Below, in pieces: positions 979 to 43,146 of a stretch of DNA of 48,087 nucleotides; positions within the stretch are counted from its first letter, which is position 1; each line of letters begins with the position of its first letter. A model generated the notes under the pieces. It ran no database searches, was not told the DNA's origin, and saw nothing but the letters and a program-made list of their open reading frames with translations. The stretch lies in the NCBI RefSeq assembly GCF_900114545.1, contig NZ_FOTI01000023.1, positions 1 through 48,087 on the forward strand, written 5' to 3'. This DNA is from Halanaerobium salsuginis (lineage in GTDB: Bacteria > Bacillota > Halanaerobiia > Halanaerobiales > Halanaerobiaceae). The translations under genes and the position numbers were made by a program.

Positions 979-1025
979 ATTCTGGGGCCATGGGCCGGGA
1001 AATAATTTTCCTGGTCCATTTTTTT
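979..1025 (+). terminator. Terminator hairpin with conserved 24-base 5' segment (copy 1)
   Basis: An 11-bp stem (992-1002 with 1007-1017, two G-U pairs, 4-base loop) is followed by a T-run at 1019-1025, the layout of an intrinsic terminator. The 24 bases 979-1002, which include CTGGGGCCATGGGCCGGG, are identical to 40655-40678. The 3' arms differ between the two copies but keep pairing, which suggests the RNA structure is selected. It lies upstream of the LacI gene and could end a short RNA started near 903. Confidence 0.7.
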
Positions 1026-1170
1026 ATTAACTAGTAAAAATTTTTAATAAGAAAAGTGGAAAGATTATAAAAATTAAATATAATTATTTGATATTTAATA
1101 ATAAATCTCTATTTCACAGAAAAAAATCGATAAAATTTATGTTCTAACAAACCCACAAAATTATTTTCAA

Positions 1171-1190
1171 ATATGAAAGGGGTTTCATAT
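1171..1190 (+). promoter_or_regulatory. LacI/CcpA-like operator overlapping the lacI-type start codon
   Basis: ATATGAAA (1171-1178) and TTTCATAT (1183-1190) are perfect inverted arms around GGGG. The core TGAAAGGGGTTTCA differs from a classical cre/LacI-family operator by one base in the central CG. The site covers the ribosome binding sequence AGGGG and the first two bases of the ATG at 1189, so binding, or a hairpin in the mRNA, could block expression of the regulator and the fucose operon behind it. The function is inferred. Confidence 0.5.
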
Positions 1191-2181
1191 GGTAACAATT
1201 TACGATATAGCAAAAAAAGCAGGAGTTTCAATTACAACTGTATCGAGGGTGATTAATAATCATCCTTATGTTAAAGATAAAACAAGAGCAAAAGTAAAAA
1301 AGCTTTTAAAAGCAACAGGTTATGTACCTAATAGTAATGCCAGTAGTCTAGTTAGTAAAAAAACAAATACAATTGCAGTGATATTACCGGATATTACAAA
1401 TATTTTCTTTGCTAAGATATTGAGAAGTGCAGAAGAAAGAGCTAATTCTAAAAACTTCACTGTGATATATGGTAATACAAATGAAGATTTTCAACGAGAA
1501 AAAAATTATATCAAAACATTTATTGAAAAAAGAATAGATGGATTACTTTTAGATCCAATTGCAACTGACATTTCAATTATCCAGCCCTTAGAGCAAAATA
1601 ATATTCCTTTTGTTTTGATTGATAGAGAGATTAAAGGTTCTCAAAAAAGTCATGTTGGAATCCATAATGAAAAAGAGGCAATTCGTATTGTTAATTATCT
1701 AATCAAAAAAGGCAAAAAAAATATTGCATTAATTTCTGCTTCCGAAGAATTATCAGTTTATAAAGACAGAAAAAAGGGCTATATTAAGGCCTTAAAAGGT
1801 TCAGGTTTAGAATTAAAAAAAGATCATTTAAAAATAGGGACTAAGCCAATCAAAGCAGTTGGCTATAATTTAACTAAAGAAATGCTGAAATCATCAGCAG
1901 TTCCAGATGCCATTTTTGTGGCAAACAACTTCCTGGCTATTGGTGTCTATAATGCTTTACAAGACTTAGATTTTAAAGTTCCAGCTGATATAGCAATTGC
2001 TTGTTTTGATGATTTTGCTACAGAGTCAATAATACCACCATTTTTTACTTCTATAATTCAGCCGGCAAGTAAAATGGGCACGGTAGCTATGGAATTATTA
2101 TTAAATAAAATTGAAGGAGGTGATAGTAATAGAAAAAAGATTTATTTAAAGAGTAAGTTATCTGTAAGAAGATCTACTTAA
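1189..2181 (+). CDS. LacI-family transcriptional regulator of the fucose operon
   Basis: The 330-residue protein has the LacI layout: an N-terminal helix-turn-helix (IYDIAKKAGVSITTVSRVIN, about residues 4-23), a hinge helix around residues 45-56, and a periplasmic-binding-protein-like effector domain (KKTNTIAVILPDI, later ACFDDFATESIIPP). It starts at ATG 1189 behind an AAAGGGG ribosome site. It is the first gene ahead of a sugar ABC transporter and L-fucose catabolic genes on the same strand, with no terminator between, so it most likely represses this operon in response to fucose, fuculose or a phosphorylated intermediate. A candidate operator overlaps its own start. The effector is not known. 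Confidence 0.88.
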   Translation: MVTIYDIAKKAGVSITTVSRVINNHPYVKDKTRAKVKKLLKATGYVPNSNASSLVSKKTNTIAVILPDITNIFFAKILRSAEERANSKNFTVIYGNTNEDFQREKNYIKTFIEKRIDGLLLDPIATDISIIQPLEQNNIPFVLIDREIKGSQKSHVGIHNEKEAIRIVNYLIKKGKKNIALISASEELSVYKDRKKGYIKALKGSGLELKKDHLKIGTKPIKAVGYNLTKEMLKSSAVPDAIFVANNFLAIGVYNALQDLDFKVPADIAIACFDDFATESIIPPFFTSIIQPASKMGTVAMELLLNKIEGGDSNRKKIYLKSKLSVRRST

Positions 2182-2231
2182 GTTTATTTTTTAATATCAT
2201 GATAATAATTTTAGATTGGGGTGAAAGATAA

Positions 2232-3728
2232 GTGGAAAGAAATTTGGTCCAGATGAACGATATAGAAAAATCATTTCCGGGTGTTAAAGCACTCGATAAA
2301 TGTCAGTTTACTTTAAATAAAGGAGAAGTTCATGCTTTAGTTGGTGAAAATGGGGCGGGAAAGTCAACTCTAATGAAAGTTCTGACTGGTGTTCATCAAG
2401 AAGACGCAGGGACGATTTTTTTTAAAGGAAAAAAAGTTAAAATTAATTCGCCCAGAAAAGCCCAGGAGCTTGGGATAAGCATTATTTATCAAGAGTTAAA
2501 TTTAATGCCCCATCTTACTGTAGCGGAAAATGTCTATATTGGACGAGAAGAAAAGAAAAATAAATTATTTATTGATAAGAAAAAACTAAATCAAAAAACA
2601 AAAGATTTTTTAAAAATGTTAAATATCAATTTAGATCCACAGGCTAAGGTAAAAGATTTGACTGTTGCTAAACAACAAATGGTTGAAATAATAAAAGCTT
2701 TATCTTATCAAGCCGAAGTTTTAATTATGGATGAGCCCACTGCTTCTCTAACAGATTCTGAAATCGAAGATCTATTTAGAATTGTTAAGAAATTAAGAAG
2801 TGAAGGCGTCGGAGTTATTTATATTTCTCATAGATTAGAAGAATTAAAAGAAATTTCAGATCGAATAACAGTTATGAGAAATGGTAATTATATTGATACA
2901 GTTGCTACAAAAGATGTTGAAATAGATAGTATCATCAATATGATGGTTGGCAGGGAAGTTTATGAGACTTCAAATAATAAAAGCAGTAAAAACGAAAATG
3001 AGGTTATACTTGAAGTTAAGAATTTAACAAGAAAAGGTGTCTTTAAAAATATAAATTTCAATTTAAAAAAAGGAGAAATTTTAGGGATGTCTGGTTTGGT
3101 TGGTGCCGGGAGAACAGAAGTTGCAAGAGCAATCTTTGGTGCTGATAATATAGATGCTGGAGAAATCTATGTTCATGGCAAGAAAGTTAACATTAGTAGT
3201 CCCAGCCAGTCTGTAGAACTGGGAATTGGTTATCTTTCAGAAGATAGGAAACGGTATGGGCTGGCCTTAGGACGTGATGTAGCTACAAATATAGTCCTGG
3301 CTAATCTGAAAGAATATATGAACAAATTTGGTTTTATAAAAGAAGATAAAATTAAGCAAGTTGCTCAAAATCAGGTGAAACAATTAGCCATTAAAACTCC
3401 AAACTTAAAACAGGATGTTAAAAATCTTTCAGGTGGAAATCAACAAAAGGTTGTAATTGGTAAATGGTTAGACAAAGACAGTGAGATTTTAATATTTGAT
3501 GAGCCAACGAGAGGAATTGATGTTGGAGCAAAGAATGAAATTTATAAACTTTTAAATAGTCTAGTTGAAGAAGGCAAGTCAGTTATAATGATTTCTTCTG
3601 AATTACCAGAAATTTTAAGGATGAGTCATCGAATTTTAGTTATGTGTGAAGGTGAAGTGACTGGTGAACTTGGTATTGAAGAAGCTTCAAAAGAAAAAAT
3701 TATGAAATTTGCAACAATGCGAAATTAA
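2232..3728 (+). CDS. Sugar ABC transporter, ATP-binding protein (RbsA/MglA type)
   Basis: This is a 498-residue tandem ATPase with two ABC domains. The first has Walker A GENGAGKS (about residues 39-46) and Walker B VLIMDEPTASL; its signature region is the variant LTVAKQQMVEI. The second has the degenerate Walker A GLVGAGRTEVARA usual in this family, signature LSGGNQQKVV and Walker B LIFDEPTRGIDVG. The length and this asymmetry define the RbsA/MglA/XylG family of sugar importers. Translation starts at GTG 2232 behind a TTGGGGTG ribosome site. It lies between the LacI regulator and the permease in one operon; from context the substrate is probably L-fucose. Confidence 0.93.
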   Translation: MERNLVQMNDIEKSFPGVKALDKCQFTLNKGEVHALVGENGAGKSTLMKVLTGVHQEDAGTIFFKGKKVKINSPRKAQELGISIIYQELNLMPHLTVAENVYIGREEKKNKLFIDKKKLNQKTKDFLKMLNINLDPQAKVKDLTVAKQQMVEIIKALSYQAEVLIMDEPTASLTDSEIEDLFRIVKKLRSEGVGVIYISHRLEELKEISDRITVMRNGNYIDTVATKDVEIDSIINMMVGREVYETSNNKSSKNENEVILEVKNLTRKGVFKNINFNLKKGEILGMSGLVGAGRTEVARAIFGADNIDAGEIYVHGKKVNISSPSQSVELGIGYLSEDRKRYGLALGRDVATNIVLANLKEYMNKFGFIKEDKIKQVAQNQVKQLAIKTPNLKQDVKNLSGGNQQKVVIGKWLDKDSEILIFDEPTRGIDVGAKNEIYKLLNSLVEEGKSVIMISSELPEILRMSHRILVMCEGEVTGELGIEEASKEKIMKFATMRN

Positions 3729-3751
3729 AATAAGATATTGGAGGCAATAGA

Positions 3752-4723
3752 ATGGATGCGAACATTAAAGAAAAGAAACAACTAATCTCAGCCGATTCTA
3801 AACAAAAAGTACTTGCTTTTTCTAGTTTAATTATGATGATAATTGTATTTTCAATTGCATCACCTCATTTTGCAACATTTTCTAATTTCATTGGAATTTT
3901 AATCTCTACAGCAGTAACAGGTCTTTTAGCAATTGGTGTAACATTTATCATTATAACTAGTGGTATTGATCTTTCAATTGGGACTGTAATGACTTTTGGT
4001 TCTGTGATGACAGGTGTATTCATCACTTTTATGGGGTTGCCAATTTGGTTGGGAATATTGGGAGGTATTCTAGCCTCTACAGTTGCCGGGATAGTAAATG
4101 GTAGTTTAACTGCCAAATTAAAGATTCCACCATTTATTGCAACTTTAGGTATGATGATGGTTGCAGAAGGTTTGAATCTAGTTATTTCTGGTACTAAGCC
4201 AATTTATTTTATGCATACACCTGCTTTCAGGAAAATAGCTATGGGTAAATTTTTTAATATTCCGCACGCAGTTTTCATATTTTTAGGTGCTGCTATTGTG
4301 GCTGGTATTATCCTGGATAAAACTGTGTTTGGTAAATATACATATGCTATTGGCAGCAATGAAGAAGCAGTAAGATTATCAGGAGTTAATGTAGATAGAT
4401 GGAAAATTGCTATTTATGCATTTGGTGGGTTCTTTTATGGAATTGCAGGAGTTATTATGGCTTCTAGATTAAATTCAGCCCAGCCAGCCTTAGGCCCTGG
4501 TTATGAGTTAGAAGCAATTGCAGCAGTAGTAATCGGTGGTACCTCTCTAAGTGGTGGTAAAGGTACAATCCTGGGTACTATAATTGGAGCTTTTATTATG
4601 AGTGTTTTAACAAATGGTTTAAGAATTTTATCAATACCCCAGGAATGGCAAACTGTTATTACAGGAGCTATAGTAATTATTGCAGTATATACTGATATTT
4701 TAAGAAGAAAGAAAACAGCTTAA
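3752..4723 (+). CDS. Sugar ABC transporter, permease (RbsC type)
   Basis: The 323-residue protein is very hydrophobic, with eight to ten predicted membrane helices. It has RbsC/XylH family motifs: GIDLSIGTVM near residue 74, AIGSNEEAVRLSGVNV near 199 and GGTSLSGGKGTILGT near 262. It starts at ATG 3752 with GGAGG seven bases upstream, 23 bases behind the ATPase gene. RbsC-type permeases normally work as homodimers with one tandem ATPase and a binding protein, all encoded here. Membrane topology was judged by eye. Confidence 0.93.
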   Translation: MDANIKEKKQLISADSKQKVLAFSSLIMMIIVFSIASPHFATFSNFIGILISTAVTGLLAIGVTFIIITSGIDLSIGTVMTFGSVMTGVFITFMGLPIWLGILGGILASTVAGIVNGSLTAKLKIPPFIATLGMMMVAEGLNLVISGTKPIYFMHTPAFRKIAMGKFFNIPHAVFIFLGAAIVAGIILDKTVFGKYTYAIGSNEEAVRLSGVNVDRWKIAIYAFGGFFYGIAGVIMASRLNSAQPALGPGYELEAIAAVVIGGTSLSGGKGTILGTIIGAFIMSVLTNGLRILSIPQEWQTVITGAIVIIAVYTDILRRKKTA

Positions 4724-4780
4724 TTAATGTTATTTAGCCTATTCTCAGGCTTTATAAAAAAATACTAGGAGGTTATATTT

Positions 4781-5722
4781 ATGAAAAAGCTAACATTATT
4801 ATTTGTTTTATTGGCAGTTTTGCTGGTGTTTACTGGAACAGTTATGGCACAGGATAAACCTTATATTGCAATTGTTTCTAAAGGGTTTCAGCATCAATTC
4901 TGGCAAGCTGTTAGACAGGGAGCTAAACAAGCTGCAGAAGATTATGATGTAGAAATAACTTATGAAGGGCCAGAAAGTGAAACCCAGGTAGCAAATCAAA
5001 TTGATATGCTCCAGACAGCAGTTGATAAAAATCCAGATGCGCTTGTTTTTGCAGCCCTAGATACCCAGGCTGCCCTCCCCTTAATTGAAGAAGTAGATTC
5101 TAAAGGCATTCCAATTATTGCTTTTGATTCAGGTATTGATAGTGACATACCTGTAACTACAGCAGCTACTGATAATTATGTTGCATCTTCTTATGCAGCT
5201 GATAAAATGGCTGAACTAATTGGTTATCAGGGTAAGGTTGCAGCTATAGTACAGGATCAGACTAGTTTAACTGGTAGAAAACGGCGAGATGGATTTCTAG
5301 ATAGAATAAAAAATTCATATCCAGAAATTGAAATTGTTGATGTCCAGTATGGTGGGGGAGACCACTTAAAGTCAACTGACCTTGCTAAAAGTATTATAGA
5401 ATCTAATCCTGATTTAGATGGCTTTTTTGGGGCTAACGAAGGTTCGGCAGTAGGTATTGTTAATGCGATTATGGAATTAGGCAGAGATGATATTGCTACA
5501 ATTGGTTTTGATTCGGGAAGTATTCTTTTAGATGCAATTAGAAATGGTATTATAGATGGTGCCATTACTCAGAACCCAGTTGGCATTGGTTATCGTGCAG
5601 TTGAAGCCGCAGTAAAAGCAATAAAAGGAGAAGAATTACCAGAAATGATTGATACAGGTTTTTATTACTATAATAAGCGTAATATGGATTCAGAAATTCT
5701 TCAGCCTTTATTATATAAATAA
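4781..5722 (+). CDS. Sugar ABC transporter, periplasmic binding protein (RbsB type)
   Basis: The 313-residue protein begins with a signal peptide (MKKLTLLFVLLAVLLVFTG, probable cleavage after VMA near residue 23). There is no lipobox cysteine, so the mature protein should be free in a periplasm, which supports a diderm host. The mature part is a type I periplasmic binding domain (PYIAIVSKGFQHQFWQ, then TQAALPLIEEV and FDSG motifs) of the ribose/galactose/fucose class. It is the third transporter gene, with the ribosome site AGGAGG. Immediate coupling to fucU-fucI makes L-fucose the likely ligand, though related sugars are possible. Confidence 0.9.
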   Translation: MKKLTLLFVLLAVLLVFTGTVMAQDKPYIAIVSKGFQHQFWQAVRQGAKQAAEDYDVEITYEGPESETQVANQIDMLQTAVDKNPDALVFAALDTQAALPLIEEVDSKGIPIIAFDSGIDSDIPVTTAATDNYVASSYAADKMAELIGYQGKVAAIVQDQTSLTGRKRRDGFLDRIKNSYPEIEIVDVQYGGGDHLKSTDLAKSIIESNPDLDGFFGANEGSAVGIVNAIMELGRDDIATIGFDSGSILLDAIRNGIIDGAITQNPVGIGYRAVEAAVKAIKGEELPEMIDTGFYYYNKRNMDSEILQPLLYK

Positions 5723-39743: not shown

Positions 39744-40121
39744 TTATCTAGTGTGAAGTGCTTTAATTACTCTAATTAACTGTTTAACTTCATCTGGGGT
39801 TAAATCTTTAGTTTCTTTAAATAATTCCTGTAGGTCATCACGTTCAGAAATTTTATCCATAAAGTTTTTAAATTCTGGATCGGCAGCTAATTCTTCTTTT
39901 AAACCTTCAACAGTAATTTTTTCATAAGAATTACCCAGCAAATAATCAGTCGACACATTAAAATAGTCGGCCAGTTTCCGGATCATTTTAGTATCAGGAA
40001 ATCTTTTTCCTTTTTCATAATGAGAAATAGCCTGATCTGTAATTCCCATAACTTTGCCCAGTTTTTTTTGAGTTACCCCTTTTTCTTTTCTGAGCAGTCT
40101 TAATCTTTCCCCAAATGACAT
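39744..40121 (-). CDS. XRE-family transcriptional regulator
   Basis: The 125-residue protein has a Cro/CI-type helix-turn-helix at the N-terminus (FGERLRLLRKEKGVTQKKLG, then ITDQAISHYEKGKRFPD, residues 3-42) and a short acidic C-terminal part that may mediate dimerisation. It resembles phage-type repressors such as Xre or ImmR. It starts at ATG 40121 with AAGGAGA. Its own promoter is well placed: TTTACA (40185-40190), 17 bases, TATAAT (40162-40167) on the minus strand. Three palindromic sites next to this promoter and a divergent one suggest it represses both. Confidence 0.92.
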   Translation of the reverse strand: MSFGERLRLLRKEKGVTQKKLGKVMGITDQAISHYEKGKRFPDTKMIRKLADYFNVSTDYLLGNSYEKITVEGLKEELAADPEFKNFMDKISERDDLQELFKETKDLTPDEVKQLIRVIKALHTR

Positions 40122-40195
40122 GTTATTATCTCCTTAGTAAAAGTATTTAAAGCCTGTTTATATTATATCCAGCATAGAAATTTATGTAAAACTAT

Positions 40196-40291
40196 GTAAA
40201 CATTATGTATATAAAAAAATAAAATATCTGCTTGCATAAACATAATGTTTATGATATTATTTATTTAAAGATAGATAAACATTATGTTTAT
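40196..40291. promoter_or_regulatory. Three evenly spaced 17-bp operators of the XRE regulator
   Basis: Two perfect copies of the palindrome ATAAACATWATGTTTAT lie at 40236-40252 and 40275-40291, and a 15/17 match lies at 40196-40212. Centres are 40 and 39 bases apart, close to four helical turns, which suits cooperative binding on one face. The first copy abuts the XRE -35 box, the second fills the spacer of the divergent promoter, and the third lies just past its start. The identity of the bound protein is inferred from position. Confidence 0.8.
40232..40260 (+). promoter_or_regulatory. Divergent promoter covered by an XRE operator
   Basis: TTGCAT (40232-40237) and TATTAT (40255-40260) are 17 bases apart. 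The second 17-bp operator begins inside the -35 box and fills most of the spacer, so bound repressor should exclude RNA polymerase. Transcription would begin near 40267 and run rightwards into a region with no credible protein gene. Confidence 0.65.
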
Positions 40292-40446
40292 AGTAATTAT
40301 TTAAAAAAAGAAATTCTTTAACTTTAAGGTGTTTTCCAATAATAGATTGATTTCTACCCCTATTTATCTATTATTATAAAATTGCCTGTTTTTAGCAGGT
40401 AAAATATACACTAAAAAAGACATACTTATCCCACTTTGTCTTTTTT
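40267..40446 (+). ncRNA. Candidate XRE-controlled structured RNA
   Basis: From the repressed promoter to a hairpin at 40413-40446, the transcript would be about 180 bases. It contains a perfect 10-bp stem (40338-40347 with 40366-40375, 18-base loop) and ends with the 10-bp stem AAAAAAGACA/TGTCTTTTTT, which can terminate on both strands. No open frame above 16 codons with a ribosome site was found on this strand. No known RNA family was recognised. An unusual AAGGAGG without a start codon follows at about 40456. Confidence 0.45.
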
Positions 40447-40533
40447 AGATAAAGAAAGGAGGTATATATTAAGCTGGTGATAATTGAACAGCTGTAACTG
40501 TTCATAAGTTTTAATTTATCAATTTACTAAATA

Positions 40534-40562
40534 ATTATATCATATCATTAGAATGGTGTAAA
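40534..40562 (-). promoter_or_regulatory. Minus-strand promoter opposing the candidate RNA
   Basis: Read on the minus strand, TTTACA (40562-40557), 17 bases and TATAAT (40539-40534, with TG in the extended -10 position) make an almost ideal promoter. The transcript would start near 40527 and end at the bidirectional hairpin 40413-40446, about 115 bases. It covers part of a 37-codon frame (40505 to 40392) that lacks a ribosome site. Confidence 0.5.
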
Positions 40563-40654
40563 TTTCTGGGAGGACTTATTATCCAGAGATAACTGAATTT
40601 TTCTAATAGTGATATTTATCCAGATTTATTTAATTAATATAATTAAATTTATTT

Positions 40655-40703
40655 ATTCTGGGGCCATGGGCCGGGAAAAGATACTTTTCCCGGCCTTATT
40701 TTT
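40655..40703 (+). terminator. Terminator hairpin with conserved 24-base 5' segment (copy 2)
   Basis: The stem 40669-40680 with 40684-40695 is a perfect 12-bp helix with a 3-base loop, followed by TTATTTTTTT. Bases 40655-40678 equal 979-1002 exactly. Between 40447 and 40814 there is otherwise a short stem (TCTGG/CCAGA near 40565-40587) and no gene. Confidence 0.75.
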
Positions 40704-40814
40704 TTATTTAATCGTTTGGGTAATTATTTAATGAAGTTAAATAAAAAATAAGAAGATTTGGTTTCAAAGTTAGTGATTAAAATTTTTAAGCAACTCTAAA
40801 GGGTGTGATAAATA

Positions 40815-41204
40815 ATGATTGCAGACCATTTAACCAGGATTCAACATTTGGGAATTCCAACTGATAAGATGCACCAGACAATTGAATTTTATCAAAAGCT
40901 TGGCTTTGAGCTTATTTATACAGAGAGTGATCAATCAGGAAAGTTAGAAGTCGCTTTTTTTAAATTAAATAATCTTATTATAGAAAGCTATTTAGTGAAT
41001 TTTATTGCCAACCAGACTGGTCCAATTGATCATTTTGCAGTTAATGTTACACAAATCAATAGTTTGTTTAAAAAAATGAAAAATGAAAACTACGAAATTA
41101 TAGAAACTACAATTCAACAACGTTCCTTTTTGGGGAAAAAGATGGCCTTTTTTACTGCTTTTGGTCCTAATGGTGAAAAGATAGAATTTAATCAAATAAG
41201 ATAA
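40815..41204 (+). CDS. VOC (glyoxalase/bleomycin-resistance) superfamily protein
   Basis: The 129-residue protein has the paired beta-alpha-beta repeats of VOC proteins: RIQHLGIPTDKMHQTIEFYQ at the start and HFAVNVTQINSLFKKMKNEN in the second half, ending with AFGPNGEKIEFNQI, where the glutamate is a usual metal ligand. Members include glyoxalase I, dioxygenases and antibiotic-binding proteins; nothing here decides between these. It starts at ATG 40815 with AAAGGGTGTG upstream. It stands alone after the terminator at 40655. Confidence 0.85.
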   Translation: MIADHLTRIQHLGIPTDKMHQTIEFYQKLGFELIYTESDQSGKLEVAFFKLNNLIIESYLVNFIANQTGPIDHFAVNVTQINSLFKKMKNENYEIIETTIQQRSFLGKKMAFFTAFGPNGEKIEFNQIR

Positions 41205-41341
41205 ATAGTTTATATCTTAATTTAAAATAATCTGCTAGTTTCTAATAGTCTAAATTTTTGAAAGAGAGGTTCTGAAAATCAGAAGAGCTGATGAAAGATA
41301 TAGTTCTTTAAGTTTAATGACTATATATTTTTAGCTTATTA

Positions 41342-41389
41342 TGTATACAAGATATATATAATATCTTTTTAATTTAGATTGTATATAGT
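41342..41389 (+). promoter_or_regulatory. Candidate GntR/UxuR-type operators
   Basis: TGTATACA (41342-41349, within TTATGTATACAAG) and ATTGTATATAGT (41378-41389) resemble the TTGTATACAA sites of GntR-FCD hexuronate regulators. Both lie 55 to 105 bases upstream of the GntR gene, where autoregulation is expected. The rest of 41205-41445 is AT-rich with one short hairpin near 41270-41284. Confidence 0.4.
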
Positions 41390-41445
41390 AACTATGTTTA
41401 AATTAATTTGATTTTTAAAATATATAAGAAGAAAGGCTTTGAAAA

Positions 41446-42108
41446 ATGAATTTTATATATGATAAAGAACCTGTTTATGATAATTTAAAAGAAAAAGCTT
41501 ATTATATTATCAAAGATAAGATAATAAACTGTGAGGTTCCGCCGGGAAGCTTTTTAGATGAAAAAGAATTAACTGAAGAAATTGGTGCTAGTAGAACTCC
41601 TATTAGAGAAGCTCTCAACAAACTAGAACAAGAAAATTTAATTAATATTTTACCTAAAAGAGGAATCCTGGTTTGTGATATTACAATGAAGGATATTAAA
41701 GAAATATTTACTATAAGAAAATTTATGGAACCATATATTTTAAGGCTTTCTTATAAAAACTTAGTTAAAGAAGAATTAATAAAATATAAAAATTTATTTG
41801 AAGAATTTTACACTGATAGAAAAGATAATAATTACTATACAAGTCTAGATGCAAGATTTCATTATTTTCTAATTAAAGCTTCTGATAATAAATATTTAAT
41901 AAATATGATGCAGCAAATTTTTATTCAAAATCATCGGATTAGAATTATTACAGCTAAAAAGCCAAATAGATTAGAGCATAGTATAGAAGAACATTTAAGA
42001 ATAATTAATTTTATGTTAGAAGGGGAAATAGAAAATGCTGTTTCAGAACTTGAAAAACATATAGGTCAGTCTTGGCAAGTATCTTTACAATTAGGTATAG
42101 ATATATAA
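41446..42108 (+). CDS. GntR-family regulator (FCD subfamily) of the L-galactonate operon
   Basis: The 220-residue protein has an N-terminal winged helix (AYYIIKDKIINCEVPPGSFL, then IGASRTPIREALNKLEQENL, about residues 15-67) and a helical FCD effector domain with metal/ligand residues (DARFHYFLIKAS, SIEEHLRIINF). FCD regulators such as UxuR, ExuR and LgoR respond to sugar acids. It starts at ATG 41446 with AAGAAAGG and precedes the dehydrogenase gene by 24 bases, so it is likely the operon regulator. Confidence 0.9.
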   Translation: MNFIYDKEPVYDNLKEKAYYIIKDKIINCEVPPGSFLDEKELTEEIGASRTPIREALNKLEQENLINILPKRGILVCDITMKDIKEIFTIRKFMEPYILRLSYKNLVKEELIKYKNLFEEFYTDRKDNNYYTSLDARFHYFLIKASDNKYLINMMQQIFIQNHRIRIITAKKPNRLEHSIEEHLRIINFMLEGEIENAVSELEKHIGQSWQVSLQLGIDI

Positions 42109-42132
42109 ATATAAATGCGAGGTGTTTAACTA

Positions 42133-43146
42133 ATGGATGTTGTTTTTATTAAGGAACCTGGTGAAATTGAGCTTTTAGATGTGCCAGAGCCAGCTGTTAA
42201 AGATGGGGAAGCTCTTCTAAAAATAAAATATTGTGGTATTTGTGGATCAGATATTGCAACTTATACGGGGAATCAACCATTTGCTAGTTATCCAAGGATA
42301 CCTGGTCATGAATTTTCAGCTGAGATAGTTGATATTGAAGATAATGATCTAGGACTTAAAGCAGGAATGATTGTCACAGCAAATCCTTATTTTAATTGTG
42401 GTCATTGCTATCCCTGTAGTAAAGGAAAAGTTAATTGTTGTGAAAGTAATGAAACTATGGGAGTGCAGAGAGATGGATCTTTTGCTGAATATATTACTAT
42501 GCCGATAGAAAGAATAGTGAATGGAAGGGGCTTGTCTGCCCAGACCTTAGCTTTAATTGAGCCCTTTTCGATAGGTTATCATGCTATTAATAGAGGGAAT
42601 ATTAAAAATAAAGATAATGTTCTTGTTATTGGAGCTGGGCCAATTGGTATTTTTGCCATGTTATCAGCAAAACTAGCTGGAGCTAAAGTTACAATTGTTG
42701 ACATGTTAAAAGAAAGATTAGATTTAGCTAAAAGTATGGGAGCAGATCAGATAGTTAATGTTAGTCAAAAAACATTGGCTAAAGAGGTAGAAAAGTTAAC
42801 TAATGGCAATGGAATGGATGCTTGTGTTGAAGCAGTTGGACATGCAAATACTTTTTTGCAATGCATAGAAAATGCCGCGTTTGGTGGGAAGATCATTTTA
42901 ATTGGCAATGGAAAAACTGAAACTAAATTTAATCATTCTATACTATTAAAAAAAGAATTAGATGTTTATGGCTCACGTAATAGCCTATATGATTTTAAGC
43001 CTTTAATTGATAAAGTTAAAACTAATAATTTGGATATTGAAAAGATAATAACTCATATTTATGCTAAAGAAGATGTATTACAGGCTTTTAAAGAATTAAA
43101 CAACAATGACGGCAGTATGGCCAAAGTATTAATCAAATTCAATTAA
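42133..43146 (+). CDS. Zinc-dependent alcohol dehydrogenase, L-galactonate dehydrogenase (LgoD)-like
   Basis: The 337-residue MDR protein has CGICGSDIATYTGNQPFASY, PGHEFSAEIVD, a structural-zinc cysteine set (NCGHCYPCSKGKVNCC) and the nucleotide loop VIGAGPIGIFA near residue 172. The segment around GNQPFASYPRIPGHE resembles E. coli LgoD (YjjN), which oxidises L-galactonate to D-tagaturonate. The next gene encodes tagaturonate reductase, so this assignment makes a complete two-step route. Other polyol dehydrogenases remain possible. The start ATG 42133 has GCGAGGTG upstream. Confidence 0.8.
   Translation: MDVVFIKEPGEIELLDVPEPAVKDGEALLKIKYCGICGSDIATYTGNQPFASYPRIPGHEFSAEIVDIEDNDLGLKAGMIVTANPYFNCGHCYPCSKGKVNCCESNETMGVQRDGSFAEYITMPIERIVNGRGLSAQTLALIEPFSIGYHAINRGNIKNKDNVLVIGAGPIGIFAMLSAKLAGAKVTIVDMLKERLDLAKSMGADQIVNVSQKTLAKEVEKLTNGNGMDACVEAVGHANTFLQCIENAAFGGKIILIGNGKTETKFNHSILLKKELDVYGSRNSLYDFKPLIDKVKTNNLDIEKIITHIYAKEDVLQAFKELNNNDGSMAKVLIKFN

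Follow-up and report, generated by a model that had tools for sequence, protein, structure and literature searches.

Conserved GGGCC-N2-GGGCC elements in leader terminators of Halanaerobium salsuginis and other Bacillota, and a small protein that may read them

Two identical segments in leader terminators

The stretch of DNA analysed here, called the window in the following, covers positions 1 to 48,087 (48,087 nucleotides, nt) of contig NZ_FOTI01000023.1 from Halanaerobium salsuginis (assembly GCF_900114545.1). Its subject is a short element, GGGCC-N2-GGGCC, found at the 5' side of two intrinsic terminators. An earlier note, made from the sequence of the window, had reported that a 24-base segment is repeated exactly in two distant terminator hairpins, far beyond chance. 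The segment ATTCTGGGGCCATGGGCCGGGAAA was found on the + strand at 979-1002 and at 40655-40678, and about 0.0002 pairs of repeated 24-mers are expected in the window by base composition.

Within the segments, the element reads GGGCC-AT-GGGCC and is located at 985..996 (copy 1) and 40661..40672 (copy 2), both on the + strand. Each copy contributes to the 5' arm of a terminator-like hairpin, as the note had described. The terminator of leader 1 (990..1026, + strand) consists of a stem at 990-1019 followed by a T tract at 1020-1026, and that of leader 2 (40668..40705, + strand) of a stem at 40668-40696 plus a T tract. Both stems have 13 pairs and were obtained from a terminator scan and from folding; shuffled sequences give an expectation of 0.1-0.2 such hairpins per region. 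The 3' arms are different, TTTTCCTGGTCCAT versus CTTTTCCCGGCCT, yet pairing is kept in both with G-U pairs included.

The genes directly upstream of both terminators lie on the - strand according to open reading frames (ORFs) and Pfam: a MatE-like fragment at 226-681 in front of copy 1, and a divergent XRE/HTH_3 regulator at 39744..40121 (HTH_3, E=4.7e-17) in cassette 2. The terminators therefore belong to the leaders of the downstream + strand operons. Behind leader 1, the operon at 1189..5722 encodes a LacI-family regulator, a sugar ABC ATPase, a permease and a sugar-binding protein. Leader region 2 (40122..40660, + strand) is followed by genes for a glyoxalase-like protein, a GntR/FCD regulator and a zinc dehydrogenase (40815..43146, + strand). 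Given their location in the leaders of operons for catabolism or transport, the window terminators are putative attenuators and not ordinary gene ends.

According to the note, the segment might be bound by a protein or a small RNA, or might be the conserved 3' end shared by a family of small RNAs. A position in operon leaders, as judged by gene order, speaks for cis regulation rather than a trans-acting small RNA. Prematurely terminated leader RNAs would have this 3' end in common, and nothing points to small-RNA action. The protein-binding site is the part of the proposal that is best supported, through the strict co-occurrence with one small protein family described below.

Conservation of the element in Halanaerobiales

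The copies are not confined to the window. The genome of H. salsuginis (G000) has four copies of CTGGGGCCNNGGGCCGGGAA, the 20-base core, of which C53:16772 and C72:10251 lie outside it. Among 38 Halanaerobiales genomes, terminator-linked copies were found in six (G000, G001, G004, G008, G013 and G025) for a total of 18, so that the search in relatives proposed by the note returned conservation there. Seven of the 18 were found via the 5' sequence alone; the other 11 adjoin the ORF of a small protein and were recovered by protein as well. Matches to the core pattern outside Halanaerobium among 85,000 genomes had no T tract behind them. The G035 copies, CTGGGGTCATGGGCC, were discarded because they fall within a reading frame and do not represent terminators.

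Sixteen of the 18 copies agree in the ten bases of the 5' arm, and the 3' arms vary with pairing retained. When the Halanaerobiales terminators were taken together with the distant sites described below, 23 terminators in all, the constant part was GGGCC-N2-GGGCC, both units being invariant and the second GGGCC opening the terminator stem. The invariance of the first unit agrees with the conservation that the note had seen upstream of the stem. The 20-nt RNA form of the region is CUGGGGCCAUGGGCCGGGAA, and element sites in genomes are given as GGGCCNNGGGCC.

Over ten stem pairs, the 23 terminators are 98.3% paired. All pairs changed on both sides fall outside GGGCC; inside it the 3' partner alone varies, mainly from C to U, which retains a G-U pair. 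Covariation outside a fixed GGGCC indicates that the hairpin serves termination, and that GGGCC-N2-GGGCC is retained for another reason. A second hairpin, GGCC-NNG-GGCC (4 base pairs, around -6 kcal/mol), is possible in every copy and excludes the terminator stem. Pairing of UUCCCGG in the ribosome-binding region of the ORF with CCGGGAA was considered as a general antiterminator and rejected, as it is absent from several copies.

The first genes downstream of the copies are diverse, and include TRAP and ABC solute-binding proteins, a mandelate-racemase-like enzyme, a GntP permease, a protein with sugar-binding and nucleotide-binding domains, an M20 peptidase and an arginine deiminase. A divergent XRE-type gene, the kind of which varies, lies upstream of most copies, copy 1 and the G008 copy being exceptions.

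The small protein

Intact ORFs that start with GTG or TTG are present in ten Halanaerobiales leaders; each encodes a protein with the pattern PGDKIYKLFxHxxVxIxGKxxxFxIxI and ends 1-13 nt before the element. Gene callers can miss this ORF in Halanaerobiales, its starts being non-ATG. The protein is 46-59 residues long, typically about 48. Eight copies of the motif, both window copies among them, have no intact ORF in front and retain the element. An eleventh copy of the ORF, at L105/L091 of G004, is interrupted by an internal stop codon, and the terminator element there is intact.

The ratio of nonsynonymous to synonymous substitution rates (dN/dS) of the ORF is 0.03-0.46. The amino-acid sequence is under purifying selection and is conserved across distant Bacillota. 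AlphaFold2 predicts a confident core of a short strand, a helix and a beta hairpin, with a predicted local distance difference test (pLDDT) score of about 92. NCBIfam gave no match to the protein, Pfam no supported match, and a sequence search of the PDB nothing credible. No relatives were found on plasmids and viral contigs. The open-access literature searched gave no paper on either the element or the protein, and the protein family and its RNA element appear to be undescribed.

In a profile search of the 38 Halanaerobiales genomes, the protein was found in exactly the six that carry terminator-linked motifs. The naive probability of such a match is 3.6e-7, a value that treats related genomes as independent. 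Where protein-less genomes of the order have GGGCCNNGGGCC, the sites examined lie in reading frames, with no terminator. The sole protein gene of G000 (C53:29751-29885), part of an XRE cassette that precedes an alanine/sodium symporter-like gene, is unlinked to all four motifs, and the gene of G013 likewise adjoins no copy. G001 and G004 have kept one intact protein gene, the others being broken or deleted. Unlinked genes and the retention of one intact copy are what is expected of a trans-acting protein.

Element and protein in distant Bacillota

Phylum-wide and class-wide searches with the protein gave six additional genomes, all from distant Bacillota. In all six the gene lies in the sorbitol phosphotransferase system (PTS) operon, between gutM, or a gutM-like gene, and srlA. 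Furthermore, these loci were found by protein alone, and each has a GGGCCNNGGGCC terminator which overlaps or follows the end of the protein gene before srlA; in three, the stop codon of the small ORF is inside the terminator. The remaining stem differs (GGGCCAAGAG/CUCUUGG, GGGCCGAAAG/CUUUUCGGUCC and GGGCCGGCGG/CCGCCGGC), as expected if GGGCC-N2-GGGCC alone is read. No XRE gene is annotated at the six loci, and XRE is thus not the common partner. In G434 (L140), a second GGGCCNNGGGCC precedes a different hairpin that is followed by a T tract.

Further features of the leaders

A promoter-like sequence, TTGACT-17-TAAACT with an extended TG, lies at 868-896 of the window, about 85 bases upstream of copy 1, and leader 1 may therefore be far shorter than leader 2. 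By alignment, leader region 2 contains boxes (AGAAAGGAGGTAT, TAATTATATCATA...GTAAATTT) common to other XRE cassettes. In RNA form, the boxes shared by the Halanaerobiales XRE cassettes (window 40411-40577; L080-L096) are AUCCCUG...GGAGG.AU...CAGGGUAAC and UAAUUAUAyCAyA...GUAAAUUU; neither gave an Rfam match. The first contains AGAAAGGAGGU, which resembles the complement of the 3' end of 16S rRNA, with no evident start codon. RNAalifold on the leaders returned a consensus structure of just 8 weak pairs. In L090 and L096, palindromes such as GTTCTAAATTAGAAC lie between the -35 and -10 of the leader promoter, some 300-450 nt upstream of the motif, and are likely candidates for an XRE operator.

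Proposed mechanism and alternatives

We propose, with a probability of about 0.6, that a small RNA-binding protein, namely the protein described above, has GGGCC-N2-GGGCC as its RNA target and controls conditional termination in operon leaders. In the absence of this protein, the terminator stem would begin with the second GGGCC and RNA polymerase would halt before the operon. When present, the protein would bind both GGGCC units of the nascent RNA, in the form of single-stranded repeats or folded into the short GGCC-NNG-GGCC hairpin, and by occupying the base of the terminator stem allow the polymerase to read through. The protein gene, often placed in such a leader just before the terminator, would control itself, and the protein would also act in trans on leaders without its gene, as in this genome. 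Direct binding, antitermination as opposed to enhanced termination, and any inducing signal are what we infer. A little less firmly, we favour the broader reading in which mini-proteins of about 48 residues are stand-alone antiterminators for a 12-base RNA code, used before many unrelated catabolic operons in several classes of Bacillota, both in cis and in trans.

Several observations weigh against this proposal. The predicted fold has no significant match in the PDB, the weak matches consisting largely of PhD/YefM-type antitoxins and CBS-domain halves with Z around 2. The sole hint of RNA binding is a match to CAT_RBD (PF03123) in one of 13 members, with E=0.011 and 16.1 bits against a cut-off of 25; the 12 other members are without it, and we rejected homology to CAT_RBD on this account. 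In G000 and G013 a different hairpin follows the protein gene. Part of the co-occurrence is simple cis linkage, and the genomes are kin.

The small ORF could instead act through its translation, so that formation of the hairpin depends on ribosomes proceeding up to the terminator, with no role for the peptide as such. The stop 1-13 nt before the element in Halanaerobiales, and within the terminator in three distant genomes, fits such ribosome-mediated attenuation. We regard it as unlikely, since the protein is under purifying selection and conserved across distant Bacillota, and since other hairpins follow the unlinked ORFs. A short ORF translated up to the terminator was not found in every regulated leader: eight copies, the two in the window and six others, keep the element without an intact ORF. 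It is also improbable that the protein binds the element and strengthens termination, or binds the RNA of terminated leaders. That reading accommodates the same co-occurrence data and the retention of the element in the terminator stem, but an occupied stem base and the competing GGCC-NNG-GGCC hairpin are expected to oppose the terminator.

Aptamers embedded in a terminator exist, as in the HMP-PP riboswitch (PMC6478431), and a metabolite or another protein might read GGGCC-N2-GGGCC, the small protein gene being a mere member of the regulon. We find this more doubtful still, because a 12-nt element leaves no room for an aptamer and because examined element sites in the 32 protein-less genomes are not at terminators. 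No match to an Rfam covariance model at the gathering score, T-box and riboswitches included, was obtained in the window or in 17 loci, and for 11 loci even a threshold of E up to 10 gave nothing credible; a known riboswitch, T-box or Rfam leader was rejected on these results. The identity could finally reflect common descent only, in leader cassettes duplicated recently or in a mobile repeat, and paralogy is clear for five to seven leaders of G025. However, leaders of different genera are much more diverged around the invariant core, the 3' arm changes where the 5' arm does not, and the element recurs in distant Bacillota; this explanation appears already contradicted by the cross-genus comparison and is very improbable. 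The end of a mobile element was rejected likewise, as the position of the copies within leaders is constant and the core does not change across genera, in contrast to the diverging flanks.

If true, binding of GGGCC-N2-GGGCC by the small protein would constitute a new protein-RNA antitermination pair, made up of a very small protein and an RNA target that is both very short and portable, and would explain how one regulator can be attached to diverse nutrient operons. It would also provide an annotation for a small ORF, and RNA-based gene control would gain a compact part. A single purified peptide and a single short RNA suffice to test this concrete prediction.

Relation to known systems

HutP, TRAP, PyrR and ANTAR are proteins whose binding site, a short motif that is repeated or forms a hairpin, lies next to a leader terminator, as is proposed here; the small protein has no sequence similarity to them in the Pfam, NCBIfam and PDB searches. 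A small ORF ending at a leader terminator is shared with ribosome-mediated leader-peptide attenuation, from which the present case differs in the conserved protein encoded, the many leaders without an ORF and the unlinked gene copies. With the regulation of the sorbitol (gut/srl) operon by GutM/GutR there is agreement in the six distant genomes, which have the small gene and the element between gutM and srlA, whereas the Halanaerobiales copies serve other operons; the literature searched on the sorbitol operon yielded no attenuator or small protein.

BglG, LicT and SacY control sugar catabolism through the ribonucleic antiterminator (RAT), an RNA element that overlaps the 5' side of a leader terminator and forms a hairpin mutually exclusive with it (PMC3369936). 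The present system is alike in having an element over the 5' arm of a leader terminator, in the mutually exclusive folds found in every copy, and in its link to sugar catabolism. It differs in the protein, which has 46-59 residues, too few for PRD domains, and lacks a CAT, PRD or PTS-regulation domain, and in the element, GGGCC-N2-GGGCC being much shorter than a RAT of about 30 nt. With no supported CAT or PRD domain and no Rfam family, the proposed pair would work like CAT-RAT antitermination without being a member of it.
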